Shown here piece after piece: positions 17,206-62,655 of a stretch of DNA of 64,000 bases (position 1 is the stretch's first letter; each line of letters begins with the position of its first letter). The notes beneath the pieces were generated by a model. The model saw only the letters and a program-made list of their open reading frames with translations. It had not been told where the DNA came from and did no database searches. Origin of the DNA: Stropharia rugosoannulata (lineage: Eukaryota > Basidiomycota > Agaricomycetes > Agaricales > Strophariaceae); NCBI GenBank assembly GCA_028532985.1, contig JANCIK010000009.1, positions 372,001 to 436,000 of the forward strand. Reading direction: 5' to 3'. The translations under genes were made by a program, and so were the position numbers.

Positions 17206-20200
17206 TAATGCACCCCGCATTGTGGTAATAGTACACCCTGCATTTCCCTCAATCCACACCCCGCCTGCTTAATGATAGTGTGTACAAAGTTAAGCATAAC
17301 GAGCCCTATTCATATTGGTAGCGGTATTAGCATATTACATTCATATTAAATTTGATAATAAATGTAAAGGAGGAACGGAGCCGGTGTATAATAGATAGAT
17401 TTGTCTGTACAGCGTAAGCAGTTTGTGTCAGACTGTAAAGAGACAATGTTTCATTTCATTCTTGATAAGGCGTAGGTAACCCATTTCAGTTATAAACAAC
17501 GTGTACACGGAGGGGGACTAGCAAAGTCTCCCCGAAACAGTCAGCAACAAACACACTCGGCATAAACACCGCAAAAACTGTGTCCTAGTATGCATGTGGG
17601 ATAGACCGCAAATAACATGTCCACAATGTACCGTACCTGCAGACTGTAAATATCAAGCAGAAGATTTACCGTCCCTCCAGACGGAAAATGAAATACAGTT
17701 AATGTACGGTCGCAAGGAACTTTGTGTACGCCGATTGCATGACCTGAGAAGTCAATACCTACAGTGCAGGTGTATCAGACACCATCATGCGCAGGGCAGC
17801 GCGTGGTATGTACCGTCCTCGTGGGTCAGCCCACTAGAATGGCATCGGAATATGGTGACGCCAGACTACTGACTGGTCGAATGGCAAAGTCAGTGCGCAC
17901 ATTGCACGGGTGACCCGCACTGCATATTCTATTCCCACACTATACTGACTGGTCGAACGGCAAAGTCAGTGCGCGCATTGCACGGGTGACCCGCACTGCA
18001 TATTCAGTTTCCACACTATACTGACTGGGCGGGCGGCAAAGTCAGTGCGCGCATTGCACGGGTGACCCGCACCGAATATGCTCAATACACGGGCGAGAGC
18101 ATATTGCAGATTCGGGGTATGCGTTAATGTATGGCCGCATCACTTCCGCATATATAGGCAGAGTGACGGAGCCGCAGACAAATAATATCGGGCTTGACAC
18201 CGCAGATGGGATGCTCACAAAGCACGGTCACCGTGACAGACTGTAAATACAAAGATGATGGTGTACTGTCCCTCCACACAGTAAGTGAAATAGTGTTAAT
18301 GTACGGTCGTAGGGAACTGATAATTGATCGTCCCTCCGGACAATAAGTACAATAGCGTTAATATACGGTTGCAGGGACCTATGTGTACGTTGATTACATG
18401 GGCAGAAAGCTGAGTGCTTACAGTGCAGTTGTATCAGACAGCATGCGGAAGGCGGTGTGTATACCACACGGCATACTCGTACCGTCCTCATGGGCTAGAC
18501 CATGAGTATGGCGCCGACATATGGAGAGTCCAGACTGCGGGCGCAACCTTCTACCCTCGAGAATTTAAAGGTAAGCGTAACCGCAAGCAAAAACATAAAA
18601 TGTATCTGTTGGCACAAACTGCTTACACCAAGCAGGTCATATACAGTACATTTGGACTGCATGTAGAAACCTGTTGTGGTGTCGACACCCGGCAGCACTC
18701 TTACACATTGATCAGTAGGCGGCCCGTGTAGAGACTAATTGATAAACCGTCTGTATATTGTGTGCGGCCGTAGTGAGTGAAAAGGAGCTGGTAGGAAACA
18801 CACAAGGCCCATGAGCCAGACAATAATCACAAACCATATAGATGCATGCCAACAAATGAGCACAACTGCAAGCAGTAGTCCAGTAGTCTACCATTGACCC
18901 GGGCTGCAGTCCCCCTGAACTGCAACTTAAAAAAGTCTTCATGTACTGTCACACGGCACTGGAGGCTCTCAGGCGCAGCTTGGTGGGTAGCTGATCTTGT
19001 ACTATCGAGCCGTTCTTTGTTGAAGCTCAGACATGGCTCGTTGTCGTACCGATTCACCGCATACCGCGTTCCCCTCTCCTAAGATCTCGTGTACCACAAA
19101 CACCACAACCACAAACTACTGGTGGATCACACTGCATCTGGAGAACATATATTATACAGACCTGTCAGACAGTAGATTTAGCACAACCGAATAAATTAAT
19201 GTACTGTCCAGGCCGCAAATTCAACGCCCATGACATACTCGTCTGCCAGACCCGCTGATTTAGAATGTCGTGTGTAGTCGTGCTTGACTTCGGACGCGCA
19301 ACCATGAGCGCGTACTGTGAATTCTGTATAGATGAGTCAAGCCACAAATTTAATGCGTTCATTACACGGGCAAGGCATACCGGCATATTCAGTACCCACA
19401 CTATACTGATTTACTGTTCGGTGAGGCCGCAAGTTCATATTTCTCAATACCACGGGCGTGGTATTCCCCATCTTCTGTGCGCACACTTTACAGATTGGTC
19501 CAGCCGCATATTTAGCCAATACACAGGGGTAGCACACCGCATATTTAATACCTATAAGATACTGTTTATTAAAACTGCATGTGTAGCACAGACTTTATAC
19601 GGATCAGTCGGTCCGTAAATACAGTGCCCATAACATGGTGGTTACTCGTACTGCAAATGTAGCTGGCACGATATACCGATCACCGAGACTGGCCCGCAGG
19701 TTATGTCGGTCATGCAGCATTCAGCCGCAACAGTTGATATTATTCCTAAGAGTTGTGCTACTGATGTCCAATGTAATACATGGGTGTGGCCTACCGCATA
19801 TACAGTGCCTACACTTTACTGATCTGTCCAGCGGCATATTCAGTGTTCTCAATACACAGGTGTGGCACACTGTATATTCAGCACTGGCAATACACTGTTT
19901 ATTAAGCCTGCATGTGTAGCACGCACTTTATACGGATAAGTCTGTCCGTAAAGACAGCGTCAGTGACATGGTGGTTACTAGCACCGCAAATCCAACTCGC
20001 ACAATATACTGATCACCTCGACCGTAGTGCCCCATGTGTACGGTGCGCTTGATATTCTATAGACGGTCTGCTCTATTACATCTCCTAAGATATGTCACAA
20101 GTAACTGGTGACTCATCTTGTCTACTTCATGTTTTCTTCATGACAATGTAGTGACCCACAGTGGTTTATGAGCTCTTTATTGGTGCTCAGACGTGACTCG

Positions 20201-21850
20201 TCGTCGTACTGATTCGCCACCGCATACACGCGTGCTCCTCTCAGACAGTAGATTCAGCGGCCTCAATAAACGGATTGTCCAGGCCGGAAATGCGGCACCC
20301 ATGAAATACTACTTAAACGTACGCGCTCATTCTTGCTAGAATTCAATGTTTCGTGCAGTCGTGCTTGACTTCAGACACGCAGCCACAAACACTCAATTGA
20401 GTCACTTTACCTATGTAGACTAGGCAAGCGGTATACTCAGCGTGCGCAATACACAGGTGTGGCACGCCGCATAATGTTCGCTGACGAGATACGGTTTAGT
20501 GACACAGCATGTGCAGCACCGACCATATACGGATCCGCCGGTCCGTAGACACAGCTTGTAATAACATGGTTAATCGTACTGTAAATGGAACTCCCACGAT
20601 ATACCGATCACTGAGACTGTAGTGGCTCGCAAATTATGTCGAACATTTAGTATTCAGCTGCAATGGTTAATATTATGTCTCTGAGTTGTGCCACTTACGT
20701 TCAATGCGATACACAGAGGTGTCCTCACGCATATACAACGCTCACATTTTACTGATCGGTCCAGCCGCATATACTGCGTTGTCAATACACAGGTGTGGCA
20801 CACCGTACATTCATGACTGACAATACACTGTTTATTGAGACAGCATGTGCAGCACCTACTTTATACGGATCAGTTGGTCCGTAAATACGACGTCCATAAG
20901 ATGGTTTGTTATTCATACCGCAAATGTAACTCGGCCAATATACTGATTACCCAGACCATAATAGTGGCTTCATGTGCGCGGTGCATTTGATATTCTATAA
21001 ATGTTCTGTTCTATTTACAGGCTAATTATTTGCACTGCATAATACACACCGTCATTCTTACTGGTGTAAGTGACTACTTAATGAGGCATGGAAATACAGT
21101 GGTGTCACGGACTGAAAATCAATAAGTCAAAATACACAGCCAGGACGTACCGCAGAAGAGCAGACTTTTCAACCAATCTGAGAGGCGCATCACCTGTCCC
21201 ACTCCAGCTCAGTACCTCCCGCGCACGCAAAAATCTTCTTAACAGCGAGGTATACGGTAATATTTTCCTGAAGCACCCTGCTACTCGGCGCGGGGAAGGC
21301 GGCACGGGACACGGGACACGCGGGGCGCTGTTGCACGGGTTGAGCCATACGGAGAACGCCAGTAAGAACACCCATGGTCAGTATACTCAGTACTTTTACG
21401 CATTCTGAATCTATTAAAGCCTGAACTCCGACTTTCATATACTATACTAGACTACTAAGTCACTGTGAAGATCAACCGGCGGTAGATTGTACTCTGATAG
21501 TCATGGCGAAGATTGCAAGATTCCGTGGGAATCCGCTTACAAAGCTTTTTGGGCCTAAGTTTTGACAAGTCCAGAGCCGAAATTGACCGTAATATTGGCA
21601 TGCATATGGCCTTTAAAAACATTTCATTACAATATACAAATAAACCTTTGATACACATTCATATTTCCTTCACACAGGGGGCCGAACATGTGTGCGTATC
21701 GTGCAGTCTTGCCAGACCGCAGATGCGCGGCCCTCGATTTACAGAGCACATGTACCACAAATCACCAGGAATGTGCGTACTGCTCAGTGGGCCCGTTAGT
21801 TCTACCGCTTATACACGCTGTAGATAGCCGTGTTGTAATGAGCTGACACA
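17206..21850. repeat. Left inverted arm of the KDZ element
   Basis: This gene-free arm of about 4.6 kb is made of diverged repeated modules whose reverse complements fill 40560-44519. Modules repeat within the arm too. A segment containing AACATGGTGGTTACT followed by ATATACCGATCAC recurs at about 19630, 19970, 20560 and 20900, and a GTCCCTCCAGACRGT-like segment recurs at about 17675, 18270 and 18335. Such subterminal arrays are typical of transposase-binding regions. Small frames here are not credible genes. Confidence 0.65.
17869..18096 (+). repeat. Three tandem 76-bp repeats near the left KDZ end
   Basis: Three copies start at 17869, 17945 and 18021, exactly 76 bp apart. Each contains CTGACTGG, GGCAAAGTCAGTGCG, CATTGCACGGGTGACCCGCA and a TTCCCACACTATA-like spacer. 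Each copy holds GGGTGACCC, a short perfect palindrome apart from its central base. The mirror array is at 43005-43225 in the other arm. Confidence 0.85.
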
Positions 21851-21928
21851 TTGATCAGCACATGCGATGCAAACCACAAGCAGTTTTAAGGGACACAACA
21901 TAGCAAGCCTACAACCAGTTTCAAAATC

Positions 21929-22948
21929 ATGATGGAATTATTGCCACGTTTATGCACTGCTCTCATCTTCCTCATGCCACCTGCAAGTCGATTTATGCAA
22001 GTCTGGAGCCAACTTTCTGCCGCAAAACAGAAGAAGTATTGGAAACTTTTGCCATCGGATTGTCGAGCGCTCTGCGCTGTATACGTACTTCTCAATCGTC
22101 CCTCATACAGTACCCATGAATTCAGACAACTTGTTTGGAATTACTTGCATCCAGACGAGAAATTTAGCGCGCTCATGACATCGATATACGACATGGGATT
22201 AACACAGCAGAAACAGGACGCTGTTCATGACATGCTGGGCACTTTCGACAATACCGTGTACGTGTTGGCCCCGTCTGAGCCTAACCCGGATGATCTCGAG
22301 AACAGCTTCAAGGACGAGCAGTACCCCGCCATATTGGATATACTCATATATCCTTCAGTTGAAGTATGTCATTCTTTCTCCTATATGATTAACATTCTCC
22401 ATTAATATCAGTGTTCAGCGAGGATTTTCATATCCAGACTTCGTTCAGCTTACCTGTTGGAATGGCTATTTCAAATACATCGAGTGGAAGGAACTGACAC
22501 GATTTGTGGATCCCTCAATTTTCCCGGTGCATTATTATCATCCTTGGGGCTTCTGGGCAAAGTTAGACGTTTCCAAGGAGATAGACGTCAAGTTTTGTAG
22601 CCCAGTCCTTGTTCTCAGATGCGGCGACCATCCCTTTTCACTCGAAGACATGCAGCGCTGGTTGGGTTGTGCGAACTGTCATATAGACTCTACATGGAGG
22701 ACACATTGTCAGTCTATACCGTTCAACCTAGATGTATGTTCCGTCCCGACAACGACAATGTACTGGCCAAGTTTGGATGGGGCTTGAAGGAGGTTGTGAC
22801 AGAGGAAGAGTACAGGAGAGCCGAATTTGAAGCGGCAGCTCTGGCTCTCTGTGTATGCAACGACGACAACGACATTATAAGCCGGAGTTTGGTGGAAGGC
22901 ACTTCACAGAAGGTGAATACGGCTCTGACAATGAAACTTATCCAGTGA
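21929..22948 (+). CDS. KDZ cargo protein A, unrecognised, 305 aa
   Basis: Three exons (21929-22363, 22419-22665, 22713-22948) join in frame to a 305-residue protein. The first intron is 55 nt with canonical GT..AG. The second is 47 nt with a weaker GTTGTG donor; it is needed to connect the two coding frames, so this junction is less certain. The N-terminal half is helical (SRFMQVWSQLSAAKQKKYWK). The middle has HYYHPWGFWAKLDVSKE, a Trp/Tyr-rich stretch that looks like a folded core, and the tail is acidic. I do not recognise a family. It is the first gene inside the left arm and converges on gene B, only about 90 bp away. Confidence 0.6.
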
Positions 22949-23035
22949 AGTTCCAAGAGCCGTATGAGGAATGGTAACGAAGGAGGATGTACATTTCTGT
23001 CTAAAATATCGCTAATGAAACATTGAATACACATT

Positions 23036-26000
23036 CTACTCTACATTTGCGCTCTGTGAGATGTCCTTCCATAGTGCAGCCTGCTCTGGCGTCTTGAACA
23101 CGAGTTTAATGTCCATGCCATAGTGCGTCCCAATACCAGCGAGGTTTTTCTCTATAATCTTCATCATTATGGCTGTCTCGTAGTGTTCTGTCGTGACGTC
23201 CATCCCGTAGAGATCGTTTATCGTGAGGCCGGTCGTGTTTCTAAAATGGCTGACCCAAAACGAGCGTACAAAACACGGTGTCGGTTCCAAAGATGGCATG
23301 TAGTAGATAGTGTTTGCGAAAACCGGATTAGTCGAGTATGCCTTGCAGGTTTTGTAGAAGAAAAATTCGGTTAGGACATCTTCAATACAACAACCGCAAT
23401 GCATATGGCCTTCGGGAGGTATGTTGAGCTTATTCTGTTTCTGGAAAGCGACGCCATGCAACTGAGTAGCATTGTCTGCATCTCTGAGTTTTCGATTGAG
23501 CTGGTGGAAACGGCATATGAAGAGTCCGTTACGCGTGTAGAAACACAGGAGAGCGACATTTCGAGACATATACGACGCTTCAGGGACGAAACTTTGTGCT
23601 TCACGGATAGCGCCGCGGTACCTCACTTTGCAGACTCTTGCATACATTGTACGCCTTTTCCGGGGAAGACTCGCAAAGTCGATGCCTTTGGTTTCGGCAT
23701 CAAACTTCTTTAAGCTTCTGAGGTATGGCTGTCCATGTGAGGAAATATTCCGCGAGAATGTTTTGAGACTTTTTGTGCCCGCGGACAAACTCGTCATGTG
23801 CGCGAAAGTTTACACACACTGCGCGGAAAAGTTAAAGCATGCGCGAAAGTTTTCGAGCTTGCGCGGAAAAACTTAGCATGCGCGAAAAATAGTTCAAGGT
23901 CAAATATGACCTGCGCGGATTTTCTAAAGACATTTCTGTGTGCGCGGAAATACTTGTACGGTGCGCGGAAAAGTTCGCAAAGTTGCGCGAAAGTTTTGAG
24001 AATTAAGGTTTGCTAATGTGCCGTGCTGCCGTGCTTAGATAATTGATGTGCACGGCAGAGGGCCGGCATGCTGAATGAGAGAATTCACACGGTTTTTCTT
24101 CCATGAACCCCCGCCTGCACTTCCTTCACCATGTATAAAAACCTGCTGTATTGTGTCATTTATACGATTTAAAATACCAACACTGACTTTTGACAGTTAC
24201 TCTGGTGCTGAGATGTTATTTTTTTGCCCAATAATACTCAGATATGGGGTGGTTACATCTGAATTTAGGCATGCAAGCGATACCCAGGTCTTACCAGTTC
24301 TACCCAAACATTCAAATGTATTCCAAATGTATTCCCAACTATATCATTGACTTCCTTAACTTTTTGTACGTTTTAAAAGTGTTCTACATTAGTGGTGAGC
24401 CAGCCAGCAGGCGATATTTCATGGAAGAAAACCGTGTGAATTCTCTCATTCAGCATGCCGGCCCTCTGCCGTGCACATCAATTATCTAAGCACGGCAGCA
24501 CGGCACATTAGCAAACCTTAATTCTCAAAACTTTCGCGCAACTTTGCGAACTTTTCCGCGCACCGTACAAGTATTTCCGCGCACACAGAAATGTCTTTAG
24601 AAAATCCGCGCAGGTCATATTTGACCTTGAACTATTTTTCGCGCATGCTAAGTTTTTCCGCGCAAGCTCGAAAACTTTCGCGCATGCTTTAACTTTTCCG
24701 CGCAGTGTGTGTAAACTTTCGCGCACATGACGAGTTTGTCCGCGGGCACAAAAAGTCTCAAAACATTCTCGCGGAATATTTCCTCACATGGACAGCCATA
24801 CTGAGGGCTTTTTCTATCGTGAACTCAGCTTATAACTTCGTGATAAGATAGATTAATGTAAATACTCACTGCGGAAATCTTTCAGATCGTCTTCATCCAT
24901 TGTATTGAGAACACGCCTTGCCCACAGCGAATCTGGCAATCGAGGCCCACGCGGCTTACGACGCTTGCTACGAGTAACGGCACTCAAGTCAGCTTCATCC
25001 TGTTCGTTGGCAATGTTGAGCGCCATCTTGTGATCATCGTCCTCCTCGTCGTCTTTGTACTCGCTCGCGTCGTCGTCGTCTGTGTCCTCTTCGCTGTCCG
25101 ATACCTCAGCGTCGCTTGCTCCATCGTCAGCATTGAGGTCCTTGGCCGCGCTTACACCTCCATCGACATCCTTGTCCTTGTCATCTTCCTTGTCGTCCTC
25201 TGCATCATTCTCCTCGGCCGCCTCCATATCCACATCCTGGTCTGAAACCATAGCGCCTTGTGACTCTGCTTCGATCTGACTTGTGCGGTTACTTGTATCT
25301 AGAGAAACCCCTGAGGACTTCGATTTAGCAGGGTGTTTGCCGTTGCCGCTTAAACGGACTTCAAGGACCTTGATGTCTTCTTCTAGCGATGAGATTTGAC
25401 TGCGTAGAGACTCTAATTTATTGGCAGGTACAGTCATGAATTGACGCATGGATGCTGATAGCTTTCGCTGTAATTCTTCCAGAAGAGTCCGATCTGCGCG
25501 CTTACAACCAAAGTGATAGTCGTACGCTTTCTGCGATGAAGTCAGTCTCGCCGTTGCCGTGGCAAGATACTCCTCAGCAAATGTCTGATCCTCCTTAGCC
25601 TTTGATATCGCATTGAGGTACTGTTGGATTGTTTCAGGAGAGTTTACTCCCGTCTCCTTGAGGGAAGAATCAATCCGTTTAATCGAATTTGAGACATATT
25701 CACGGTACAGCTCCCATACACAAAGATTGGCCTGAGCGTAAGCGAGGTCTTTACGAGCAATGAAATCGCTTTGAAGCTCGAACTGAGTGCGATACATATC
25801 TGGTACTCTGGTATCCTTGAGTATCTGTCTATTGAAGTAGGGGCGGTCGGGGGTCCTATATGAGAACTTGTCCTCCCAAGAAGACAGACTACCTAATCTG
25901 TAATGTGCGTTATTCAAAGGAATATGTATGAATGTTAGGGCGCGCGCTACCTCTCTGCTGCAATCATTTTAATACTTTGGATCAATGCAGCCGTATTGTT

Positions 26001-26325
26001 GTCACTGTCTCTGAGGGCAAATAAGTATGTTAAGTCCGTATGAGAGCTAATAGACGTACGAGTTCATGGCCTTCATGGCTGCTACATGGCTCTTGAGGCC
26101 ATTGCTCGGCAAAGGCATTTCAGTACTCTTGTTTTCGGCGCGCGCTCTGGTGATACTCTTGTTTCTGCTACTGCTACTTTGGTGGTTTCAGAACGGTCGG
26201 GAACAAAAAAAACAGGTTGCATAGACATACTGAGCGGAACCCATCCTTGGGCGCTTAAATGTGGAGGCATCAATATCTTCCGCGCCGCCACCTGGGTTTT
26301 GACGTTTTGTCGCTGGAATCGGCAT
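23036..26325 (-). pseudogene. KDZ cargo gene B, coiled-coil/acidic protein, interrupted by a MITE
   Basis: Exons can be followed on the minus strand. They run from a candidate ATG at 26325 (basic, NLS-like ATKRQNP and FKRPRM), through short exons near 26150-26060 and 26020-25950, to a large exon from about 25890 to 24875. That exon encodes helices (FIARKDLAYAQANLCVWELY; LRSQISSLEEDIKVLEVRL), then a long Asp/Glu-rich tract, then RSKRRKPRGPRLP. A 57-nt intron (GTGAGT...GATAG) leads to the last exon, which reads KKALRSLKKFDAETK across the point where a 1077-bp MITE sits (23724-24800). The C-terminal domain has HMHCGCCIEDVL and about 120 further residues with no family I recognise. With the MITE present the frame enters the repeat and stops within about 15 codons, so this copy is probably broken. 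Confidence 0.6.
23724..24800. mobile_element. MITE-like element with 384-bp terminal inverted repeats
   Basis: The termini read TATGGCTGTCCATGTGAGG inward on both sides. The arms 23724-24107 and 24418-24800 are almost identical; the one clear difference is a T-run length. Flanking 6-bp direct repeats CTGAGG lie at 23718-23723 and 24801-24806. If the terminal base pair is counted with the repeat, the duplication becomes TGAG. Each arm contains about nine TGCGCG(G)AAA motifs, likely transposase sites. The central 310 bp is AT-rich and encodes nothing. Near-identity of the arms implies a recent insertion. Confidence 0.9.
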
Positions 26326-26504
26326 CCGTTCTGCATCTACGACAATACTGCAGGAGTAGGAGCAGATGAAATTAGTTACTTCATATTAGCGACCCGGATG
26401 CCACTTACCTGCGACTGCCTGAAGGTGTTGCATGTGCGTCATGAAGATTCGCGTCAAGAAGTTCTTCTATATGTTGACTACATCGGTAAGGTTTTCAATT
26501 GAGT

Positions 26505-27687: not shown

Positions 27688-27743
27688 AGAAGTCGGTAAT
27701 CTATGAATGCCAATAGTGAGTCAATGTATGAGCAGTAATACTC

Positions 27744-29044
27744 TCATGTTACGCACCCTCCATCACCATCAACATCCAGAGCATACTCAGCAGAAGATCC
27801 AGCAAGCGGATTAAGTGGGTCAGCGGCGATAATGGTCTCAATCACCTCCGACTTGACTTTAACCGAGGTCGCTTCATCCAGATCTTTATTTTCACATAAA
27901 TGCTGAACTCCTGCGTTGTCTTCAAACGACGCTGGGGGGCCTTGCTCATTATTTAATGAGCCTGTTTGAACATGTGCGGTGTCCAAAGAGGACTGTTGAG
28001 CCTGTGCACTGTGCAGAGAGAGCAGCGCAGCGTGCGCGGGGTCCACAGAAGGCGGATGAGCGTGCGCAGTGTCCAAAGACGACTGTTGAGCTTGTGCGCT
28101 GTGCAGAGAGAGTGGAGGAGCGTACGCGGGGCCCACAGAGGACAGGCGAGCGTGCGCGGGGTCCAAAGAGGACTGTTGAGCCTGTGCGCCGTGCAGAGAG
28201 AGTGGCGGAGCGTGCGCATGATCTGCAGAGGACGGGTGAGCGTGCGCGGCGTCCACAGGGGGCGGATCAGCGTGCGCAGTGTCCAAAGACAACTGTTGAG
28301 CCTGTGCACCGTGCAGAGAGAGCGGAGGAGCATGCGCATGGTCCGCAGAGGACGGGTGAGCGTGCGCGGGGTCCAAAGAGGACTGTTGAGCCTGTGCGCC
28401 GTGCAGAGAGAGTGGCGGAGCGTGCGCATGATCTGCAGAGGACAGGTGAGCGTGCGCGGCGTCCACAGAGGGCGGATCAGCATGCGCAGTGTCCAAAGAC
28501 GACTGTTGAGCCTGTGCGCCGTGCAGAGAGAGCGGAGGAGCATGTGCATGGTCCGCAGAGGACGAGTGAGCGTGCGCGGGGTCCACAGCCTGGGACTGTT
28601 GGGCTTGTCTGTATATCCCATGAGTCGGTGAATGGTTATGCAGCAAGTTTGAAGAACTCACATTTTATGGCCATCATCACTCACTGCATGGTCGATCAAC
28701 AATTCAGTAGAGGGAATCAGGGAGCTGCTAATCTCTGGTTTTCCTTTAACAGCAGCCGCTCGCTGTTCAAAGTTTTTCCAAGCCGCTCTGGCATTGTCAC
28801 GGCGTATACGAGCAGCCTCCTTTTTGTCCACTGTATGCACGCATATCATGTAACGTCGGATATAGAAGTTAGAATAGGTAAATATGCACTCACAGTCAGC
28901 CTTTCGTTTGTGTTTGTACATCTCCCACTCCTTTAGAGATTGATTGAGCTCATTCAAAAGCAGAGTTTCCTCATCCTGAACAGCGTGAATGCCCTCTGTC
29001 GCTCCCAGGGGCCTAACGGGGACTGCTGCTCGAGATGACTGCAT
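27744..29044 (-). CDS. KDZ cargo gene D, decapeptide-repeat (Ala/His-rich) protein
   Basis: Exon 1 starts at 29044 and contains LLNELNQSLKEWEMYKHKRK. Exon 2 has ARIRRDNARAAWKNFEQR (helical, basic). Exon 3, from about 28608, is a run of decapeptides such as SSADHAHAPP, LSLHGAQAQQ, SSLDTAHADP and PSVDAAHAHP, about 20 units encoded by a 30-bp minisatellite (about 27985-28600). The phase across the last intron (AAAAT/GTGAGT to ACAG/ACAAG) selects the Ala/His frame. All other frames are open too because the period is a multiple of three. A short acidic C-terminus follows. Copy number probably varies between alleles. The function is not recognised; repetitive low-complexity tails often mediate multivalent binding. 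Confidence 0.6.
27985..28600 (-). repeat. 30-bp coding minisatellite
   Basis: There are about 20 tandem copies of a 30-bp unit (core GTGTCCAAAGACGACTGTTG or GTCCACAGAGGGCGGAT on the plus strand, with GAGCGTGCGC between). They are organised into higher-order blocks of 90 and 120 bp that alternate. The array lies inside gene D. Confidence 0.85.
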
Positions 29045-29482
29045 GTTAACGTATGTTGTTGTTGTTGTGGTGTAGAATAGCACGTTTGGAAGTAACAGAG
29101 ACACAGTTGAATAGGACTGTATGTCAAGGGTAAGGTCAACCAATACTGCACGGTGACCTAGTAAACACCAGTTGCTCTACCTCACCGCAAACGACATGAC
29201 TTGATAATTGTGATTGGTCATATCTGGCAAGTGCCAAGCAAAGACCGGCGTTTGAGTGTCTGGAATTCGCGGAAGATTGTGACCGTTTGGACGTTTTGAT
29301 CCTAGTACGCATGTGTGTCAAATTCCTCCGTATCTTACTTGAATCTAGAGATCTCAGATCCCATACATCTCGGTTCCTTTGGTGTGCGATGGATTTAGGG
29401 CTTAAGTCCAAACATGTTTTAAAACTTATTCTCCACTCCTCTCTCTTGACCTCTACCAGTTTCGTCCCTCAAGTAGCCTCTG

Positions 29483-30257: not shown

Positions 30258-30473
30258 CTATTTGTATGGTAGATATGTAGTCTGTCGTCCGGAAATATAT
30301 CTCTCCTTCCTCCCTTGAACATTATGTGCCACTGCGGCACAGGGCGTAGTAAGATTAGTCTATTTGTACATCATCGGAGTTAGTTTGGGTAATCATTCCG
30401 GGATGTATACCGCCCGTAACCATGAGAGGTGTACCAGGACTTGTCAATAACCTCTAACTTTCATCCATAAATT

Positions 30474-33175: not shown

Positions 33176-34261
33176 TTATGACTCTACCAAATCAGGGTAA
33201 TCGTCTCGGGTCATTCTCTCATTTATCTGTATCATTGACACCCGCACGACCTGACCATTGCAGAGACATTGTATAAAGTAATGTAAGGCATCTTCACGAT
33301 GCCGAAATGTGGACATAGACCCTCCATTCACCTGAAAGATGTTGGCGTCGACGTTGGAGGAACTACTTAAATAACAATAAATTAGTAAATACATGTAGCT
33401 GCCGAATTTATTACTGACCCAATTCGAAAGACACCTGGATTACGCCCAATGATAACCGTGCACCACCACTCTGGGCCCCCTCGGCCATAATCTACAGCCA
33501 TGGAAATTTAAAATTAAAATAAGCTGAAACATGGTATGAGAGAAAGCCATACCTTTATCGATTTGAACAAGTTTGTCCTGCTCACCAACTTTATCCCGAC
33601 ATACATGTGTAGTTCTGCGTACTATCATAGCATTATTGAGATAGGTAATGAAAGCCTCTCTGGCTTCATGAAGATTCTCGTAGACGACGTGGTAGGTCTG
33701 GCGTACATCATCAAACAGGGCCTCCTGATTATCATATCTAATGTCGTGTTTAGTACAGAAATAATGACAATTGATCATGACTTACTCAAAGCTGTATACT
33801 CCAGGGCGTCGCCCGATGAGAGCTACTTTGAACCGGTGTGAACTGGAGATATTTGGGTCAGAAAAGTTCCACTGTGTGACGCGATTCCTCTGTGCTCCAT
33901 AGTCAACAATGGTATCCCTAGAAGACTTAGAGAGACGGAATCGAAGTACAATATCTATTTCAGCCATTGAAAGAGCCTTGTCAGTGAGATAAAAGTCAAC
34001 ACAAGCATTCGAAGTCACGTTTATTTGAGTAGTACTGTCTTCTACGACCAATGTCAAGCAAGTGTTCAACTTCACGCCGTTCCAAAAGCCCTATGTATGT
34101 GTGTTATCATTAAACGGATTAAAGCTGCACGTCAATGGATACTCACCATTTCTTTTATATTGTCTGCGGTTACTGGAATTGCCTTCAGTGTAGAATGGGT
34201 CGACACTGAAGACTGTCTCTCCGGTAGCACTAATGCGCACTTTGGAAGCACAAGAAGTCAT
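33176..34261 (-). CDS. KDZ cargo gene G, second tandem RNase H1 N-terminal-domain protein
   Basis: On the minus strand, from ATG at 34261, exon 1 encodes MTSCASKVRISATGETVFSV and ends near 34148. The next exon carries NACVDFYLTDKALSMAEIDI and runs into the first hybrid-binding module, FKVALIGRRPGVYSFE. A 48-nt intron with a TACTAAAC-like branch site follows. The module continues YHVVYENLHEAREAFITYLN. A second module begins WWCTVIIGRNPGVFRIG and ends STFRHREDALHYFIQCL. The C-terminus is RDDYPDLVES. The exon 1-exon 2 junction did not resolve in phase by eye, so either a small intron is missed or the gene carries a frameshift. It is a diverged relative of gene E with an extra N-terminal domain, and no RNase H catalytic domain is present. 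Confidence 0.7.
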
Positions 34262-34737: not shown

Positions 34738-35269
34738 ATGACCACACCGCAGACAACCGATGCCCGTATCTGCGGAAGCCCTGACTGCCAACAAGAAATC
34801 TGTAACTCATGCGAGTTTGTTCCAATGTACATCTATTATGGGGTATGTCACTCACGCTACTTACAGGCTCTTAGACACTACCATTCATTTATCCGTTTTA
34901 CAGAGAACAGCACAGCTCCCACTGCACTGGTTAGCACGCCTTCAAGACGGTACCTTCTACTGGAATCAAGACCCTATTTTGAGTCACATTATTGAATCCG
35001 ACACGCGACCGCTTGAACTGTACTACTGCGATCAGGAGCCGCATTGGCAGCCATTTAACCCAGAGATGCCGGTGCGCTCCCTCCCACCGGGCTGTCCATT
35101 TATGATACGCTGGTCCGGCCGCCAAGATAGCGACTGTATTGGTATCAAGCACTTCATCCAGAAGATACACCACCGCTTTACCCGGTGTCCCGTACCTGCG
35201 TGTTACCTTACTCCTGACGAGCCAGGGACACCAAGTGATGATTCTTACAGTGAAAATGGTGATGAATAG
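34738..35269 (+). CDS. KDZ cargo gene H, small Cys-rich protein, 156 aa
   Basis: Two exons (34738-34842, 34904-35269) with a 61-nt canonical intron give 156 residues. The N-terminal exon has CGSPDCQQEICNSC, a spaced Cys cluster that could bind zinc. The second exon is a compact Trp/Pro-rich domain (LPLHWLARLQDGTFYW; DQEPHWQPFNPEMPVRSLPP; PFMIRWSGRQDSD) with an acidic tail ending YSENGDE. No family is recognised. It sits 50 bp from the convergent end of gene I. Confidence 0.65.
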
Positions 35270-35319
35270 ATGTTTGTAAAGAGATATTATTACAGAGAGC
35301 CATTCGACTACGTCAAATC

Positions 35320-36928
35320 TTATTTACTCAACATCAAATCAAATTCTGCTTGTTGCTCTAAGAGCGCAATTCTCTTCTCCGCTTGAGCAAGCTTCTCCAG
35401 CAGAGTCTGGTTTTTCTCATTCGCTTCTTTGAGTGCTTTCTCAGATTTGATGGCATCAACGCGCCTGGACTTCAGAAGCTCTATGATTTGCCCGTTGAAG
35501 TTGTTCACGTTTTCCTGAGACCAATCTTTTGCTTCCAGGTGTAAACGAGGCGATGTGTAATGAAGGGTAGGCTGTCTTGCAGAGACATGCTGTGCGCCAA
35601 TGAACAACCAGCAGCCAGTTGCTGCAGATATATCCTCACACTGGTCAGCCCGTAAATGTCAGAATAACATGAGTAATAGACGACATCAACAGCGTACCTT
35701 CTCTAGCACGGAGTTCATCATCTTCAAGAATCTTGTGCTTGCAAGTGTCTGGTCGTCTATAGGATTTGGCTTGCGGTGGTGGCGTACGACCTCTGAATGC
35801 CAATTAGAATATTGTTCAAACAAGAATATACTTCATACTATGTAGCTTATTCCCCCTCATTGCGCCATCAACATACCCATATACAGGATTTTGATCGTTA
35901 GCGCGAACTCGTGAAGAGGAGCTAGAAGACGCTACATGCTAACTCAACAAGGATTACTTAAAAAATTATGAGTAATACTCACCGCCCTGCGAGAGACTTA
36001 GAAACAATGAAGGTATGGGATGATCTCCTTCTGTATGAGGACTGGGGGATGTTGGAGGGCTTGAAGACATGGTGACATCGCCGCCGTCTCCTGATATATC
36101 ATCGTAGTCATTGTTCATAAATTCGGACGGAGCACCACCTAGAATAATTGGTTAGTACTGATTGATGTGGTAGTGGGTGTGTATATTAGTTACCAGAGCT
36201 CGAACGTCCAATTTCCCGTAAGAGAGGGTCGATGTTGGTATTGCCTGCATCCTTGCCAAGGTCTTGCCGCAACGGGGTCGAAAAAACATCCAATTCGTTC
36301 GACCTTAGCGAAACCGGAAGGGCATGGCTTAAAGAAGGCTGGGAGTCGTTTGGAGACAGAGTTCCATTCACAGTAGGTGTTGACACAAATGGGAAGACTG
36401 GTAAGCCTTGAATCTCCTGTGACAATATTTATGTGGTTTGGCACCTCGTATGTCAGTGAATTAACTCACATTAACAATGGTTCTCTCTCTGAGATAAGCC
36501 TGTCCTTTCTTTGAGTGCGCACACTCTGTCAGAAGAGGTCTACCTTGGCACAATCTGCATCGCCTTGGGGACCTTTTTTGCGTCGGGGAAGCCTGTTTCT
36601 TCATAGTGTAAGTGATAGACATGCACGTTCAATGATTCGCCGTACCTTTTTGTTAACTGCAACCGAAGTAGATGCTAAACTATGTGTCTGAAATGAGTGG
36701 TATAGTTGTTAGAAGCTTGCGGAAAAATACAGTAGAGATACTGACTCGACGGCCTTGAGACGGAGTAGAGGGGGCTGGCTGCACTGAAACCTTTTTTGGT
36801 CCATGAATTGGGCAGGTCGCACGCAATGGTCTGTCAGGGCACTTTTGGCATCGCTGAGGCGCTCTTTGCTTTTTTTTTACAGGACTTGGCATGGAGGGAG
36901 TCAAACTGTAGTCTGTAGATGAGGTCAA
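35320..36928 (-). CDS. KDZ cargo gene I, twin Cys/His knuckle and coiled-coil protein
   Basis: This minus-strand gene has at least seven short exons starting at 36928 (MTSSTDYSLTPSMPSPVKKK). It contains two similar Cys/His motifs in separate exons: RCQKCPDRPLRATCPIHG and RCRLCQGRPLLTECAHSKK. Both fit CxxC-x(7)-C-x(1-2)-H, suggesting a duplicated zinc knuckle. Basic linkers surround them. A Ser/Pro-rich, probably disordered middle follows (TPTVNGTLSPNDSQPSLSHA; DISGDGGDVTMSSSPPTSPS). The C-terminus (35320-35607) is a clear coiled coil, SEKALKEANEKNQTLLEKLA, ending QQAEFDLMLSK. Phases matched at most junctions. The likely role is nucleic-acid or protein binding and dimerisation. Family not recognised. 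Confidence 0.65.
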
Positions 36929-37298
36929 ACGCCACGTAGCACGAATTAAGATGTAGATGCGGTAGCACTCTTATATAATCTTCTCTGCAGTTGACAAGAA
37001 CGGTAAACTATGGTGGGACAAGGTGGTAGTATGTACAGCATCTTCTACCTAAGTCATATACTGGTGTGGAGAGCCGTACTATTAATACCAAGTGTGACAG
37101 CAGTTATGTATCTCAGCAAATGCTGTCCTGATATTACGACAGTCGATTTGAACTGTAACTCAAGTGTGAAGTAAGTTCTTCAAGTTCTACATATTTTGGA
37201 CTGAAAATACACCATAATAGCGATGTTGGGAGTCTAACCAAACCTATGTATATAAAGATATATATTTAATCTAATAACGACATAAAAAACAAGTTGGT

Positions 37299-40200
37299 TT
37301 AGGATGTAAATCGAAACATCTTTCGAATACGCATACGGTTCCAAATAGAGAGAAATACTTTTGTGAGACTCATGGCTCGCTCCTGGCCCATATATCCAAT
37401 CATCTTGCGGATCCTTCCTAGCCCCTGATTTCCACACTCCCCAGCGCTTGTGTTAATAGGAAGTAGTCGAGGATCAGAATTTTTGTAACTCTTGAGGAAG
37501 CAAGCCGATGCACATTTTGTATGGTCGGTGGCATGAAAGTCGTCAATGGCAAATAGAGTTTTCTGGAAGAATTCCGGCTCTCTGAGCATGCAGTATGGCT
37601 GTAACTCGCAGGCAAAGTCATATACAACGATATCCGGTGCTTTTTCCCACCTTGTGTACATGGCAGAAAAGACGTCGTTTCTGCCTTCGCCAACCGGAAT
37701 ACAATGAAATCCATATGCAACACTGTGTGTGCACCAGCAGACCATAATACCCCCTGTTAACTTCTTGGGGCTATATGTGGAGTAGAATTTGCGGCAGCCA
37801 TATTTTCTATCAGAAGTTGTATCCTTAGAGTCTTCTTTGAGCTGCGGATAGGATGGTCGGAATCGAATCTGCGGCATTGCATAGTAACAACCGGTCTATA
37901 CAAGTCACTCAATATTAGTGAATTAACTACACCAGAAAAAATAGCACACCTGTCTCCATTTCGAAGAATCTGTCTCTGTCTGAGGGACTGGTTCCATTGT
38001 TTTGTGAACTAGATACTCTCTCCGTACACACTCTGCCCGGACATAGAGCCAGCGACAGAGAGCAATTGTTTGAGGACTGAATTCGCCGTTCTTGATCAAC
38101 TCATACTCCAATGTGTGGTAAACACTCGGTATATGAATGAGTTTGGAGTATGTCTCATACGAAGGGCATTGAAGAAACTTAAGAAGTAGCGGTAGCATGC
38201 GTCCATTAACCATCTGAACTGCATTTTCTTCAGCAGCAATCTGTGACACATAAGAAACACAACTGTGAAGAGTTGAAATTGGGCATACCTGTAGCAAAAG
38301 CTCCTTATACTGTGAAAGCGGAACACGGTGATTTAAAACAGCCTGAACCCCGAAATGACATTCAAAGAAGTTCCCCAACGATTTATCCACATTCATAAGA
38401 TCATTGACAAGTTGGGGAATTAAATGAAATCGGCGCTTCATGGAAGCCTTCTGCTTTTCAAGAGCTTCTTCTCTGGATTGTCTGGTCAAAGCCTCTTCAT
38501 CCGATTCAGATTCTGACAGCAGACTTTCCGTCTCTGTCGTCTTGAGACCTTCAGCAAGAGGGGGACCAGATATCGCCTCACGAAGCAGCTTTCTCAGGGC
38601 TCTGTCAGGGATAAATTGAGGACCTTTGAGGCGCACAGTATCCTGGTATATAGGTGACTTTTGTGTAATGGATGTTGGAGGTTCCAGAGTCGAAAGTGCC
38701 ATTTTTCGATTGAATGCAATAGATACTCCATCCCAGATTACCGTAGAAGGAGTGGGGCCACAATCAGGACATACCATGTCTAAGCTTCCAAAGTCCATAA
38801 GCCTTGCGTACGCGAACCAAACATCTCGGAACTTTTTCTGATCAAGAAACCGCTGACCACCTGGCTGTGTCGAATACCTGCGGGAAATGACAGTCACCCA
38901 AGCCGTGAATGGTGTCTCAGAACTTGTAAACGTGCTGATATAGTCGTTGAGGACCTCATGGGCAATAAGAATGTTATTATTGTAGTTGAACAATCCGAAC
39001 TCCCCACAATCGGGGCCTATGCGATTCACTTTGCAAGCCGGGCAGAGCTGAACTTCGATTGTAGCTTTCCACGACTTAAGCAGTCCGTAAACCGTACATT
39101 GCCTTGTTACAACTGGAGCATTAGGGGCGAGCATTGTACGAGGCATTTGACAATTGCACGATGATGAGTCCGATACCTTGAAGGTAAGCCCCGAGTAGTT
39201 ATCAGGCGAGGTTGGTACCACTATAGGCAAATCAGACGGGACTCTAGCCCATGTCGGAGGCGATACAGGAATATACGAGATTGCAGAGTCGGAGAGACTG
39301 ATGCCATTGGATAAGCGTTGAACTTTCCTCGCTGTTCGAGTTTGTGCATTAGTACCTTATCTCTGATTTGTACGAACGCTCGTCTCACCTTCTATATGTG
39401 GCAGGAGCTTCACTGTGTAATCTGCAGCTGAACGGTCGTGGTTAAGAGTGCGTTTAGCCATGGCAATGTGAGGACATGATTGAGCAGAATCTTGCATGCA
39501 CTTCCAGCGTCCTGATCCATCATCTTTCCCAATGTACTCGACAACAGTCGTGTTCTTAATAGTTGGATCGATGGGCGGTGGTACAGATACAAAATTGATG
39601 AATTCGTCCCCACTACTACCCCATGGATATCGTTGAATAATAGTAGGGTTCTGGTGATTTACTGCAGCAAAAACATGAGGTGATTACCATGCAACACTGA
39701 ACATAACTTACGTGGCATATCCTGGACATCGGGAAAAAATATAGACCCATGATCATGGATAAATCGCGAGTGGAAACAGTTGGCCGTTCTCTTTGATTCA
39801 GGACAGAGACATACAACGATTAACTCTTGATCGAGCTTGCTCGCATGAATGTGATACCAAAACTTCTGAGTAAGTAACAGATTGTCAGTAATTTTAAGCA
39901 GCGCATATCATCACAGTCATCACTTACCGTCAATTCTCCCTTCTCATGATTCCATCCTGTTGCTACGTATGTCTTTCTTGATAGTTGATAAAATGGCAAC
40001 GTCCCATTGATTATGGCATCAAAAAATAGCTCATAACGCTCTTCAGACTCATCAGATGCGGGTATATCGCAATTTGCATCATGAACAAGTGTATCATAGA
40101 AAGCGCTGTGGCCTTCGAATTGCATGGGCTGAGCGCTTGGTGCAGTCTTAGATTGGGACATGAGTACAATATAGTGCACTGGTTATGTTATCCGACTTAC

Positions 40201-40518
40201 CCAGTCAGGTGGATCGCTCGTGGGCTGCTCGACAACGGACTCAGCCTCCCAGGTTGGTGAACTCCGGACTCCTGTCACCCCACTTTGTTGATGCGGTGGA
40301 GAAGGGGGGCCGTTACTCGCATCTTGGTGGGCATTGCGTGTCTTGCGGGCTCTCTTGTAAGCCCCAGCATCTTGATTACGTGCCTTGTTAGGCTTTCGGC
40401 CTCGCCGTGTAGGGGTAACGAAGCTCAGCGGCTGTTGATAAGCCATGTCCAATGAGATTTCTTCGGCATTACTTATTGATTGTTGTGGTAGAGAAATGTA
40501 AGCATCTGAGTATTCCAT
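37299..40518 (-). CDS. KDZ-family transposase
   Basis: This multi-exon gene should catalyse movement of the large element. Starting at 40518, the N-terminus is basic (TPTRRGRKPNKARNQ). Next come a SWIM-like Cys/His cluster (VVCLCPESKRTANCFHSRFI) and another (KCMQDSAQSCPHIAMAKRTL). Then follows a KDZ-associated cysteine region (QLCPACKVNRIGPDCGEFGL; MVCPDCGPTPSTVIWDGVSI). The catalytic part reads TGCYYAMPQIRFRPSYPQL, then IVVYDFACELQPYCMLREP, FAIDDFHATDHTKCASACF and INTSAGECGNQGLGRIRKMI. These match the KDZ DDE core, with Asp in YDFAC, Asp/His in DDFHATDH and Glu in SAGEC. Introns are about 48-60 nt. No frameshift or stop was found in the exons I followed, so the gene may be functional. It is the gene nearest the right arm. 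Confidence 0.85.
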
Positions 40519-40539
40519 GGACCAAGTCGAGTCTCAGTG

Positions 40540-43500
40540 AAGTAGAAGGTTTGAATATATGTGTGTTAACTTCTGCAAGAAGCCTGCGCCAAAAATATCA
40601 CCGTCTGACATAACAGAATCACATATGGTGCGCGTACTGATGCAGACACCAGTGGAAGAATCGACATTGTATAAGGATGCACATGGACTGCTGAGGAATT
40701 GAACATATCAGTGCAGTTGCGGTTGACAGTTTGTAGATTTGATAATCTCTACGGTATATATAAACAGTAAATGTACACATATGATACGTACCTGCAGACA
40801 GTCCCAACTGGAAACGGTACTGTTTGCAGTCTATGCCACTAGTATACTGCGCCACCTATGTATACGGGCCCACTGAACAGCATGCAATCCCGTGATGATT
40901 TGTGGTACATGTGCTCTGTAAATTGAGGGCCGCACATCTGCAGTCTGGCAGCACTACATTATACACATATATGTTCGGCCCCCTGTGTGAAGGAAATATA
41001 AATGTGTATCAAAAGGTTTGTTGTATATTGTAATGAAATGTTTTTAAACGGTCAATTCTGGCTCTGGTTATCAAAGCTTACTAGGCCGAAAATGCTTTGT
41101 CAGTGGATTCCCACGGATTCTTGCAATCTTCGCCATGACTATCAGAATACAATTTTCCGCTGGTTTATCTTTATATTGATTGAATAGTCCAGTATAGTAT
41201 ATGATAGTTGGAATTCATGCCTCAATGGATTCAGAATGAGTGAAAGTACTCAGTGTACTCTGTGACTGTGGTCGCCCCGGCCAGGTCACCGGAAATGATT
41301 AGGTAAGCGCGCGTGACCTGCATGCCCTCCGTTCGCTAACGTTTTCGGCCCACTCGGCTGGCTTGTCCTCCACCCCTCGATGCACTCGATGGCCTCGCTC
41401 GCCACGATCAACGGCCCCGGACCCTCCCCTCTGTTTGCCCCCAAGGCCACCAGAATTTGGCTGGCGTCGATCGCTCCAGGTCACAATTGAAGAGCCATCT
41501 CGGCGTAGAGATTGAGGGATGGCGTGTGTTGGTGTGTGTCTCCGGCTAGGCCGATGCGTCCAGGCTACGCATGTGGTCATTGTACTGGTCTCCACGGCGT
41601 CCCCGCTTCCCCCGTCCTGGAGTCTGTCATAATACAGAATCACATCAGTTCATACATAAGTAAGTAAGTAAGTACGACGAAACATTGTCGAGAATAAAAC
41701 ATTAAGTGGAAAAGATGAGTCACTAGTTACTTATGACATCTTATGGGATGTAATAGAACACACCGTCTATATAATATCAAGCGCACCGCGCACATGGGGC
41801 CACTACGGTCCAGGTGATTAGTGTATTATGCGAGTTGCATTTGCAGTACAAGTAACCACCATTTTACAGACACTGTCTTTACGGACAGACTGATCCGTAC
41901 AAAGTGGGTGTCACACATGCAAGCTTAATAAACATTGTCTTGTATGTACTGAATATACAGTGTGCCACACCCGTGTATTAAGAACGCTGAATATGCAGCT
42001 GCACATATCAGTAAAGTGTGGGGACTGTATATGCAGTAGAGGACGCCTATGTATGGAATTGGACATCAGTGGCATAACTCCTATGAATAATATTGACTGT
42101 TGTTGTTGAATGCTACATGACCGACATAATCTGCGAGCCGCTACGGTCTCGGTGATTGGTATATCGTGTGAGCTACGTTTACGGTACGAGTAGCCACCAT
42201 GTTATGGGCACTGTATTTACGGACCGACTGAGCCGCATAAAGTGGGTGCTACACATGCAGTCTTAATAAACAGTATCTTATCGGCACTGAATATGCGGTG
42301 TGCCACCCCCGTATATTGGGGGCGCTAAATATACGGCTGGATCAATCTGTAAAGTCTGCGCACCAAATATGTACGTGTCATAATACCTGCTCCTTCGCAG
42401 TGGTACAACGCCACTACGGCCGCACACAATATACAGACAGTTTATTAATTAGTTTCTACATGGGCTTCCTACTGATCAATGTGTAAGAATAAACAGTGCT
42501 GCCGGTGACCGCCACTGCAGCAGGTTTCTACATGCAGTCCAAATGTACTGTATATGCCCTGCTTGGAGTGAGCAGTTTGTGCCGACAGATACGTTTTATG
42601 TTTTTAGCTACGGCGCTCACCTTTATAATTCTCTGGGGGTAGAAGGTTGCGCCCGCAGTCAGGAGTCTAAGCAGTCAGCTTTCTGCCGATGTAATCAGCG
42701 TACACATAGGTCCCTACGACCGTATATTAACGCTAATGTACTTACTGTCTGGAGGGACGGTAAATTATCAGTTCCCTACAACCGTATGTTAACACTATTT
42801 CACTTACTGTCTGGAGGGACGGTACACCATCATCTCTGTATCTACATTCTGTGGTGACCCTGCTTTATGAACATCCTATCTGCGGTGTCAAGCCCGATAT
42901 TATTTGTCTACGGCTCCGTCACTCTGCCTATATATGCGGTAGTGATGCGGCCATACATTAACGCATACCCCGAATCTGCGATATGCTCTCGCCCGTGTAT
43001 TGAGCATATGCGGTGCGGGTCACCCGTGCAATGCGCGCACTGACTTTGCCGCCCGCCCAGTCAGTATAGTGTGGAAACTGAATATGCAGTGCGGGTCACC
43101 CGTGCAATGCGCGCACTGACTTTGCCGTTCGACCAGTCAGTATAGTGTGGGAATAGAATATGCAGTGCGGGTCACCCGTGCAATGTGCGCACTGACTTTG
43201 CCGTTCGACCAGTCAGTATAGTGTGGGAACACGGCTCACTCGTGCAATGCGCGCGCCTGACTTTACGCGTTACGCCTCGACTACACAGTATGCGGTACGG
43301 CTCATCCGTGCCTTGGCCACAATTAATTTGAGGTTGGACCAATCTGTATAGTTTCCGCGCATATTCTGAGTCTGTAACATGCACCCGCACGTGCATTGAG
43401 TATATGCGGTACGGCGCACTGTTGCAATGCGCGCACTAACATTGCGGTTCGACCGGCCGGTATAACGTGTTACAGAGTATGCGATACGGCTAACTCGTAC

Positions 43501-44519
43501 CTTGGGCACTATTACTTTGCGGTTTGACCAGTCTGTATAATGTCCGCACCAATAGAAACATGCCTGTCCTAGGCAACCGCTTATTTACTGTACTGAATTT
43601 GCTGTCTGACTGGTCTGTATATTATAATTGTGCCAAATTCCGTCGTATTCAAGTATGATTCACCTGTATCTTGTGGACGTGGTGTATGTGGTACACTACT
43701 AGCTATGACGTTGCAATCTGGAATCGCCATATCTTGCCGTCATACTCGTGGTTTAACCCACAAGGATGGTACAGGTATGCCGTATGGTATACAGACTGCC
43801 CTCCATATGCTGTCCAATACAACCGCACCGTAAGCAGTCAGCTTTCAGCCCATGTACGTACACATAGGTCTCTGCGACTGTACATTACCACTGTTGTACT
43901 TACTGTCTGCAGGGACAGTAAATTATCAGTTCACTGTGACCGTAGGTTAACGCTATTATACTTACTGTCTGGAGGGACGCTACAACATTATCTCTGTATT
44001 AATAGTCCGGGGTGACGGCGCTTTGTGGACATCCCATCTGTGTTGTCAAGCTTGCGGCTCCGTTACTCTGTCTATATATATGTGGTCTAGATCAACTGTA
44101 TAGCGTGATCTCTGTATCTACGGCTTGACATTGACTGTTCTTACTCAAATCTGGAGGGTAATGGCTCTCTGTAGACATGGGTTGTTTGTCCTGTCCGTAC
44201 GTATTATATGTCTTAATCATGACACATAGCAATAAGTAACTGAAGACCCCCGCTATTTCCCTTCGCTGTCATGTCCCAGTGTGCAGTGGCGTCGTGGATC
44301 AATTCCTCCTACGTAGAACACCCGCATGGGCACCAGCATCTGGTGTTGAAATTGGACGGCTACATTGGAGAGTACCGTATACTGTGGCATGTTACCGTAG
44401 AATTCATTCATAATGATAACATTATGTTAGCCTTATATTATGCTTAAGATGCATAAGCCATGCGGGGTGTGAATCTGGCTAATGCGGAGCGTGCAAACAT
44501 AGCAATGCAGGGTGCATTA
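40540..44519. repeat. Right inverted arm of the KDZ element
   Basis: This is the counterpart of the left arm in inverted orientation, about 4 kb and without genes. Matching pairs include 42690-42745 with 18361-18410, and 41740-41830 with 20945-21015. It contains a GC-rich island at 41285-41640 that has no clear equivalent in the left arm and ends near GTAAGTAAGTAAGTA (41659-41673). The outer 400 bp (44100-44500) is less similar to the left arm, but the tip (44445-44519) matches again. Confidence 0.65.
43005..43225 (-). repeat. Mirror array of 76-bp repeats near the right KDZ end
   Basis: This array is the reverse complement of the 17869-18096 array. It has three copies containing GTGCGGGTCACCCGTGCAAT, then GCGCACTGACTTTGCCG and CCAGTCAGTATAGTGTGG. 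A degraded fourth unit follows to about 43270. Confidence 0.85.
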
Positions 44520-62546: not shown

Positions 62547-62655
62547 TGTTGTAGATTGTTTCGACCAGCGAAAAGACTGAGGAGGGTATGTAAAGTTGGG
62601 CGGGTGAGCGCAGCTGCCTTTCCACCATTGAGATGGACTTGGTTTTATACATTTT
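62547..62655 (-). promoter_or_regulatory. Core promoter of secreted-family copy 3
   Basis: Read on the minus strand: GTATAAAACC near 62641-62650, then AAGGCAGCTGCGCTCACCCG (about 62600-62619), then CTTTTCGCTGGTCGAAAC (62558-62575), then the ATG at 62546. The TATA-to-ATG distance is about 100 bp, as in copies 1 and 2. Confidence 0.65.

Follow-up and report, generated by a model that had tools for sequence, protein, structure and literature searches.

Eukaryotic DNA transposons have mostly been described as a transposase with at most a few helpers. The described elements closest to the one reported here, which occupies ∼27 kb of a 64,000-nucleotide stretch of the Stropharia rugosoannulata genome, are those of the KDZ (Kyakuja-Dileera-Zisupton) superfamily. 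In the available text of one study, Cryptococcus KDZ1-KDZ3 are active elements of ∼9-11 kb with a CxC1 cysteine cluster, terminal inverted repeats of 139-241 bp and 8-bp target-site duplications, given as 4-8 bp for KDZ2 and KDZ3 (PMC12810828). In Agaricomycetes, TET+ Kyakuja/Zisupton elements keep a TET/JBP dioxygenase accessory gene with the transposase, and the two Kyakuja families described in the consulted part of that work have 7-bp duplications and CA..TG ends with no inverted repeats (PMC12730594). Outside this superfamily, a Pleurotus Helitron, a rolling-circle element with captured genes, is described in the part consulted as carrying capE, a PF01693 gene (PMC4289320).

The stretch analysed (the window) comprises positions 372,001 to 436,000 of contig JANCIK010000009.1 in assembly GCA_028532985.1, here C9:372001-436000 of a 48-Mb genome of 20 contigs. 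Positions given without a contig are those of the window, and the copy of the element within it is referred to as W. W is a real, mobile transposon of ∼27 kb, as seen from its defined ends, its 8-bp target-site duplications and near-identical copies on different contigs. Its genes form a fixed module tied to the transposase rather than a set of random passengers.

Element boundaries and copies

W extends from 17178 to 44548 (27,371 bp) with the termini 5'-AGGGCAGGGGC...GTAACATATACC-3'. An exact 8-mer, GACCAACG, abuts both ends, at 17170-17177 on the left and 44549-44556 on the right. For comparison, copies on C12, C10 and C13, two copies on C8 (C8a and C8b) and one of a distant lineage (lineage III) were fetched in full or in part. 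The C12 copy aligned to W from 17178 to 44548 end to end, indels aside, and is flanked by its own 8-bp duplication, AAGATTAC. Alignment of the C10 copy to W begins exactly at 17178, giving a third support for the left end; to the right of 41048 this copy gave no forward match to W. Over 26,070 aligned bases W and C12 share 99.47% identity, and they differ by at least 20 bases at four places only: a nested element (1083 bp including its duplication), a minisatellite (210 bp) and 152 bp in each of the two long arms of the element.

Two sister copies are also complete. C8a measures 21,029 bp and has the exact 8-bp duplication TACTTACT; C13 measures 19,741 bp and has ATTATTAG on both sides. The C8b copy runs beyond the stretch that was fetched. 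W, C12, C13 and C8a all start with AGGGYAGGGG and finish with ACATATACC. Copies with different ends, which an earlier note on this DNA had named as a refuting result, did not turn up among these four; lineage III has other tips.

An 8-bp target-site duplication, as in Zisupton, was exact in W, C12, C8a and the C8 copy of lineage III. Terminal inverted repeats of the Zisupton kind were absent: the outermost 28 bp contain no inverted match of at least 8 bases, and the inverted repeat lies further in, at a subterminal position. The element also departs from Kyakuja, which has 7-bp duplications and CA..TG ends, in having 8 bp and AGGG...ATACC. A TA duplication at the tips placed by the earlier note was abandoned after the 8-bp duplication came to light.

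Gene module and its linkage to the transposase

The gene models are approximate; the script behind them scores conservation of codons between diverged copies in a model's favour and accepts GT-AG introns only. An initial gene-finder run was noisy, the two compared copies being too alike, and was repeated with diverged pairs. The compact multi-exon set between the arms, put at about ten genes by the earlier note, was counted at nine, one of them (BC) interrupted in W. From left to right in W these are A (+), BC (-), I (-), D1 (+), D2 (+), E (-), F (+), G (-) and H (-), the last being the transposase. C13 has the same order but with F moved and turned; C8a has it with H turned relative to the others, and F was not found there. 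Across the three copies compared, protein identity was 28-68% outside the catalytic exon and gene order was largely kept.

The H catalytic exon gave 29 matches in the genome, corresponding to 27 places, with two weak fragments (E 1.3e-5 and 2.9e-5). Five module proteins (BC, G, D2, A and F) were searched genome-wide, and adjacent exon matches were merged by hand. Within 25 kb of a transposase match lay 24 of 26 places for BC, 25 of 26 for G, all 18 for D2, 12 of 13 for A and 14 of 16 for F. This makes 93 of 99 module places, against at most 2.8% of the genome that near a transposase match. Three of the 93 (G, F and BC at C10 ∼1.72-1.73 Mb) depend on the weak H fragment at C10:1719168. Gene E, compared by coordinates, had all 10 of its genome matches inside element clusters. 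By our own count, 23 of the 28 clusters contain H, G and BC together, and one of these has two sets.

The six unlinked places were three on C6, two on C9 and one on C12. The C6 group (G, F and BC) resembles an element remnant, the C9 places (A and BC) seem to belong to an element that another has interrupted, and the last is a piece of F close to the start of C12. The earlier note had given as a refuting result the presence of these genes in conserved synteny away from the transposase and arms; judged from the match list, none of the six looks like a conserved host locus. That the genes travel with the transposase was upheld in substance; the word 'cargo' used for them misleads, since they are linked to the transposase across the genome. 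On C9:212935-278856, a large element has apparently been split by insertion of an element of the same family.

Lineage III

The distant lineage is represented by C8:592769-606880, an element of 14,112 bp with the exact 8-bp duplication GAATTTAT. Other copies were found on C1, C6 and C7, their ends differing from these points by a few bases at most, and in the end stretches compared the four copies share 98-100% identity. Their tips differ from those of W (GGGGACAACC...GGTTATAC). Homologs of H, G and BC are recognisable in this lineage, which makes these three genes the core of the module. Two open reading frames peculiar to the lineage gave no Pfam match. Five compact clusters, or parts of such clusters, of the group at 63% identity also contain D2.

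Transposase H

H lies at 37299-40518 on the minus strand and consists of a CxC4 cysteine cluster and a KDZ-like catalytic part. A CxC cluster is associated with KDZ; that of H matched CxC4 (PF18717) with an E-value of 1e-44, and all 12 of the H homologs obtained from a protein search matched CxC4 as well. The earlier note had named the element a KDZ transposon of ∼27 kb. Its size and mobility were borne out; the match to KDZ itself (PF18758) is under the Pfam cut-off, with E 0.0014 for the window exon and 18.9 bits against a required 26.6. Six of the 12 aligned H-family members matched PF18758 at E<=0.01 (best 3.8e-4). A genome-wide Pfam scan gave 123 KDZ matches, of which two, both under the cut-off (C9:266901 and C12:2479941), belong to this element family, and none in the window at E<=0.001.

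Profile-profile comparison of the H family with four canonical KDZ transposases of the same genome (hhalign) was negative. A second comparison used 11 of the 12 rows, leaving out P0008, in which the catalytic part is truncated; the alignments are thin and the negative is weak evidence. With the CxC4 match clear, the KDZ match under the cut-off and the profile comparison negative, membership of the KDZ superfamily is likely rather than proven.

The RNase H-like catalytic fold of DDE transposases was looked for in the H homolog P0001, whose catalytic part was modelled mostly below a pLDDT (predicted local distance difference test score) of 50. No fold match to P0001 was found in the PDB at E<=0.001, and a sequence search of the PDB likewise gave nothing at that threshold (best E 0.42). 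D93, D118 and E153 are near-invariant in the H alignment and might, at a guess, form the catalytic triad.

Other genes of the module

The conserved part of gene A (21891-22977, plus strand; comparative gene model) encodes a protein of ∼295 amino acids. Gene BC (23036-26270, minus strand) has a coiled-coil, acidic part (model 24853-26270) and a Cys/His-rich part (23036-23723) in which we read an HCGC motif and further invariant Cys and His residues. It is a single open frame in C13 and uninterrupted copies exist; in W it is broken by a nested foldback element at 23724-24800 (1077 bp). This insertion has 396-bp inverted repeats with the tips TATGG..CCATA and a 6-bp duplication, CTGAGG (23718-23723 and 24801-24806), and is absent from C12 and C10. 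Its tips and duplication agree with the IS3EU signature as given in the consulted part of PMC12730594 (TAYGG..CCRTA tips, 6-bp duplication).

Gene I (27744-29176, minus strand) encodes a small charged protein. In W it includes a minisatellite (27976-28588) coding for His/Ala-rich repeats, 210 bp of which are missing in C12. Gene D1 (29529-30349, plus strand) encodes two RNase H1 N-terminal domains (PF01693; E 1.9e-13 for the window model and 2e-13 for that of C13), a domain also called caulimovirus viroplasmin. A genome-wide scan for PF01693 gave three matches, none within the elements, where the domain is probably split by introns and so escaped the scan. Gene D2 (30474-32405, plus strand) encodes a protein with a conserved C-terminal region. 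Gene E (33176-34261, minus strand) has GRxPGV(Y/F) motifs resembling the RNase H1 N-terminal domain, to which its Pfam matches are weak (E 0.0021 in C13, 0.098 in the window).

Gene F (34742-35266, plus strand) is an open frame that lies outside the models kept for the window. Gene G (35320-37041, minus strand) was recovered as three partial models in the window and as one six-exon model in C8b; by our motif reading its protein has two Cys/His zinc-like motifs and a C-terminal coiled coil. The profile of the C-part of BC gave nothing convincing against the PDB (best E 1.3). An Rfam scan of 17000-44700 gave no match.

Selection on module genes

Ratios of nonsynonymous to synonymous substitution rates (dN/dS) were calculated between copies. 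For C8a and C8b the overall value was 0.22 over 1838 codons, with 0.02-0.20 for H, 0.09 (C-part) and 0.40 for G, 0.05-0.12 for E, 0.23 for D2 and 0.07-0.10 for BC. Overall values were 0.32 for W and C10 (2391 codons) and 0.37 for W and C12 (2474 codons). Seven of the nine genes had a dN/dS below 0.6. Most of the module genes measured are under purifying selection and have been kept working, with decay visible in single copies. D1, I and A offer the weakest case.

Subterminal repeats and long inverted arms

The earlier note had taken an inverted motif with 16 of 17 matching bases (17206-17222 and 44503-44519) for the tips of the element. The motif is real and conserved in position; it is subterminal, and the true ends lie 28 and 29 bases outside it. 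It forms part of a set of repeats at 17206-17243 (plus strand) and 44460-44519 (minus strand). The sequence CACCCYGCAT occurs on the left at 17211 and 17234, that is at +34 and +57 from the end, and on the right at 44460 and 44505. W, C12, C8a and C8b have it at both left positions and C13 at +34 only. It was also found inverted close to the right end in those copies whose right end was covered. From its placement, CACCCYGCAT is a candidate transposase-binding site.

The left arm (17178-21800) is a diverged inverted copy of the right arm (40864-44548). Self-comparison of the window showed inverted similarity between ∼17.9-21.8 kb and ∼40.9-44.1 kb, and in the arm-to-arm comparison 2953 of 4623 bases were covered on the left (17178-21800) and 2600 of 4048 on the right (40501-44548). 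Tandem repeats of 76 bp lie at 17867-18079 and 43006-43231. Gene models in the left arm were low-scoring (up to 127) and were judged to be non-genes. The gene-free arms of ∼4 kb seen by the earlier note are thus present as diverged inverted similarity in W, and in C12; self-comparison of the C8a and C13 elements, the two sisters checked, gave none. C12 carries two more 76-bp units (152 bp) than W in each arm, and this equal difference points to homogenisation between the two arms.

The arms had further been proposed as the mobile boundary. This was rejected: the ends at 17178 and 44548 are set by GACCAACG, by the C12 copy and by the start of the C10 match, the duplications lie outside the tips of the earlier note, and two sister elements are without arms.

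Surroundings of the element

The element sits in a diverged tandem array of HET-domain genes with ∼78-82% DNA identity. The gene at 13795-15339 (minus strand; Pfam HET, E 4.3e-11) flanks the element and is outside it; others lie at 6872-8419 (minus strand; E 3.4e-12) and 53145-54665 (minus strand; E 3e-13). A paralogous empty site was sought by comparing the joined intergenic flanks with the neighbouring tandem units, which gave patchy matches and none at base level. At 51466-52267 lies an 802-bp element whose 71-bp inverted repeats match at 97%, and a 98% copy of it lies near the C8b element. Two open reading frames at 60551-61051 (plus strand) and 61904-62644 (minus strand) encode His/Ala-rich proteins of similar composition.

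Interpretation

We consider it probable that the element is a large cut-and-paste transposon belonging to a divergent KDZ-related (CxC4) clade, with the gene module and not a lone transposase as its unit of mobility. H would bind the subterminal CACCCYGCAT repeats, cut at AGGG.../...ATACC, carry out the chemistry and insert with an 8-bp stagger. G and BC, which persist even in the 14-kb lineage, would act as subunits or helpers of the H reaction, with D1, E, A, F, I and D2 as presumed add-ons of the larger elements. D1 and E may bind RNA:DNA hybrids or double-stranded RNA and so shield the transcripts or DNA of the element from RNA-based silencing. Speculatively, transcripts of the arms would form hairpin RNA in the arm-bearing subfamily, a possible reason for hybrid-binding proteins. 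The fuller proposal, of a DDE-type transposase with two obligate partners (G and BC) and a hybrid-binding shield, resembling Tn7 in logic and not in ancestry, is put forward tentatively.

Several observations weigh against the module as the unit of mobility in a KDZ-related element. The KDZ membership of H is weak, as the profile comparison indicates, and the left duplication of C13 is displaced by one base. A, BC, D2, F, G and I matched no Pfam family above the cut-off in the gene models scanned, so that no family gives them a function; the domain assignment of E is likewise under the cut-off, and the predicted structure of the C-part of BC (pLDDT 40.7) offers no usable fold. Selection is weaker on I (0.43) and on one half of D1 (0.55) in C8a and C8b. 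A and F were measured only between W and C10 and W and C12, pairs too alike for stable per-gene values; these include 1.59 and 0.52 for part of A and, between W and C12, 1.99 for D2 and 1.09 for C. One stop each was present in pieces of H and I (C10) and of E (C12). Two H places, C10:1689757 and C6:686623, have no module match within 15 kb, so degraded copies or H-only units exist.

These two places would fit a reading in which H alone is the transposition enzyme and the other genes, G and BC among them, serve escape from silencing or regulation. Precedents are the TET/JBP genes of other fungal transposons, thought in the consulted part of PMC12730594 to counter silencing, and the PF01693 gene of the Pleurotus Helitron (PMC4289320, part consulted). 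Set against it are the retention of G and BC with H in lineage III and in 23 of 28 clusters and the absence of any epigenetic enzyme domain from the models scanned, and we regard it as rather unlikely, though a serious competitor. If host genes had been captured on one occasion and then multiplied by segmental duplication, with the transposase an incidental companion, near-identical pairs such as BC on C13 and C7 (99%) could result. This reading is contradicted by the copies, whose ends lie at corresponding bases and whose 8-bp duplications differ; nor was any copy seen that was clearly host-only, and we think it very improbable. Size, several genes and inverted arms might also suggest an integrated virus-like element of the Polinton/Maverick type. 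The Pfam scans of the gene models gave no polymerase (DNA polymerase B included), packaging ATPase, protease or capsid family, a CxC4 transposase is present, and this origin is scarcely credible.

As a module tied to its transposase, the locus presents a gene set mostly without recognisable domains that has stayed with one transposase clade across deep divergence. It allows direct tests of two ideas: that several dedicated subunits may be needed by a eukaryotic DDE-type transposon, and that transposons may deploy RNA:DNA-hybrid-binding proteins against silencing. The module is also a source of new fungal protein families.

Comparison with known systems

A search of the protein collection gave 12 relatives of H. 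Ten of these carry names, namely Pholiota, Psilocybe, Athelia, Coprinopsis (three), Agrocybe, Mycena (two) and Candolleomyces. For G there were two, one from Psilocybe cubensis and one from Ephemerocybe; the locus tags of G and H in Psilocybe are 131 apart, so that the two need not share one element. BC had no protein relative at E<=0.001 among 7998 scored candidates. The titles and abstracts listed in literature searches, with subscription papers and Repbase outside the scope, included none describing this module, in agreement with the earlier note, which did not recognise the set from described elements, and no paper pairing CxC4 with KDZ. KDZ elements with TET/JBP and active Cryptococcus KDZ elements have already been described; this gene module apparently has not.

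The element resembles KDZ transposons in its KDZ-associated cysteine cluster and KDZ-like catalytic part. It shares 8-bp duplications with Zisupton and with the Dileera-type Zisupton-1_PGr, as given in the consulted part of PMC12730594. It differs in its CxC4 clade, a KDZ match under the cut-off, tips without an inverted repeat and nine genes among which TET/JBP was not found. Cryptococcus KDZ1-KDZ3 likewise have duplications of 8 bp, or of 4-8 bp in KDZ2 and KDZ3, and the available text of PMC12810828 names no gene module. With the TET+ KDZ elements it has in common a KDZ-associated transposase that keeps accessory genes with it, TET/JBP being theirs. Identity with a TET+ element was rejected on the lack of a TET/JBP match in the gene models, as far as Pfam can recognise such a dioxygenase.

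A transposon-borne gene with an RNase H1 N-terminal/viroplasmin domain is common to this element and the Pleurotus Helitron (PMC4289320, part consulted). With D1 here and a PF01693 gene there, the domain has been acquired more than once by fungal transposons. A Starship was rejected, with no tyrosine recombinase Pfam match in the models scanned. Like the Starships of Pezizomycotina, in the partial accounts consulted, the element is large and carries many genes; those are elements of Ascomycota with a tyrosine recombinase and variable cargo, whereas this one has a CxC4/KDZ-like transposase and a fixed module.

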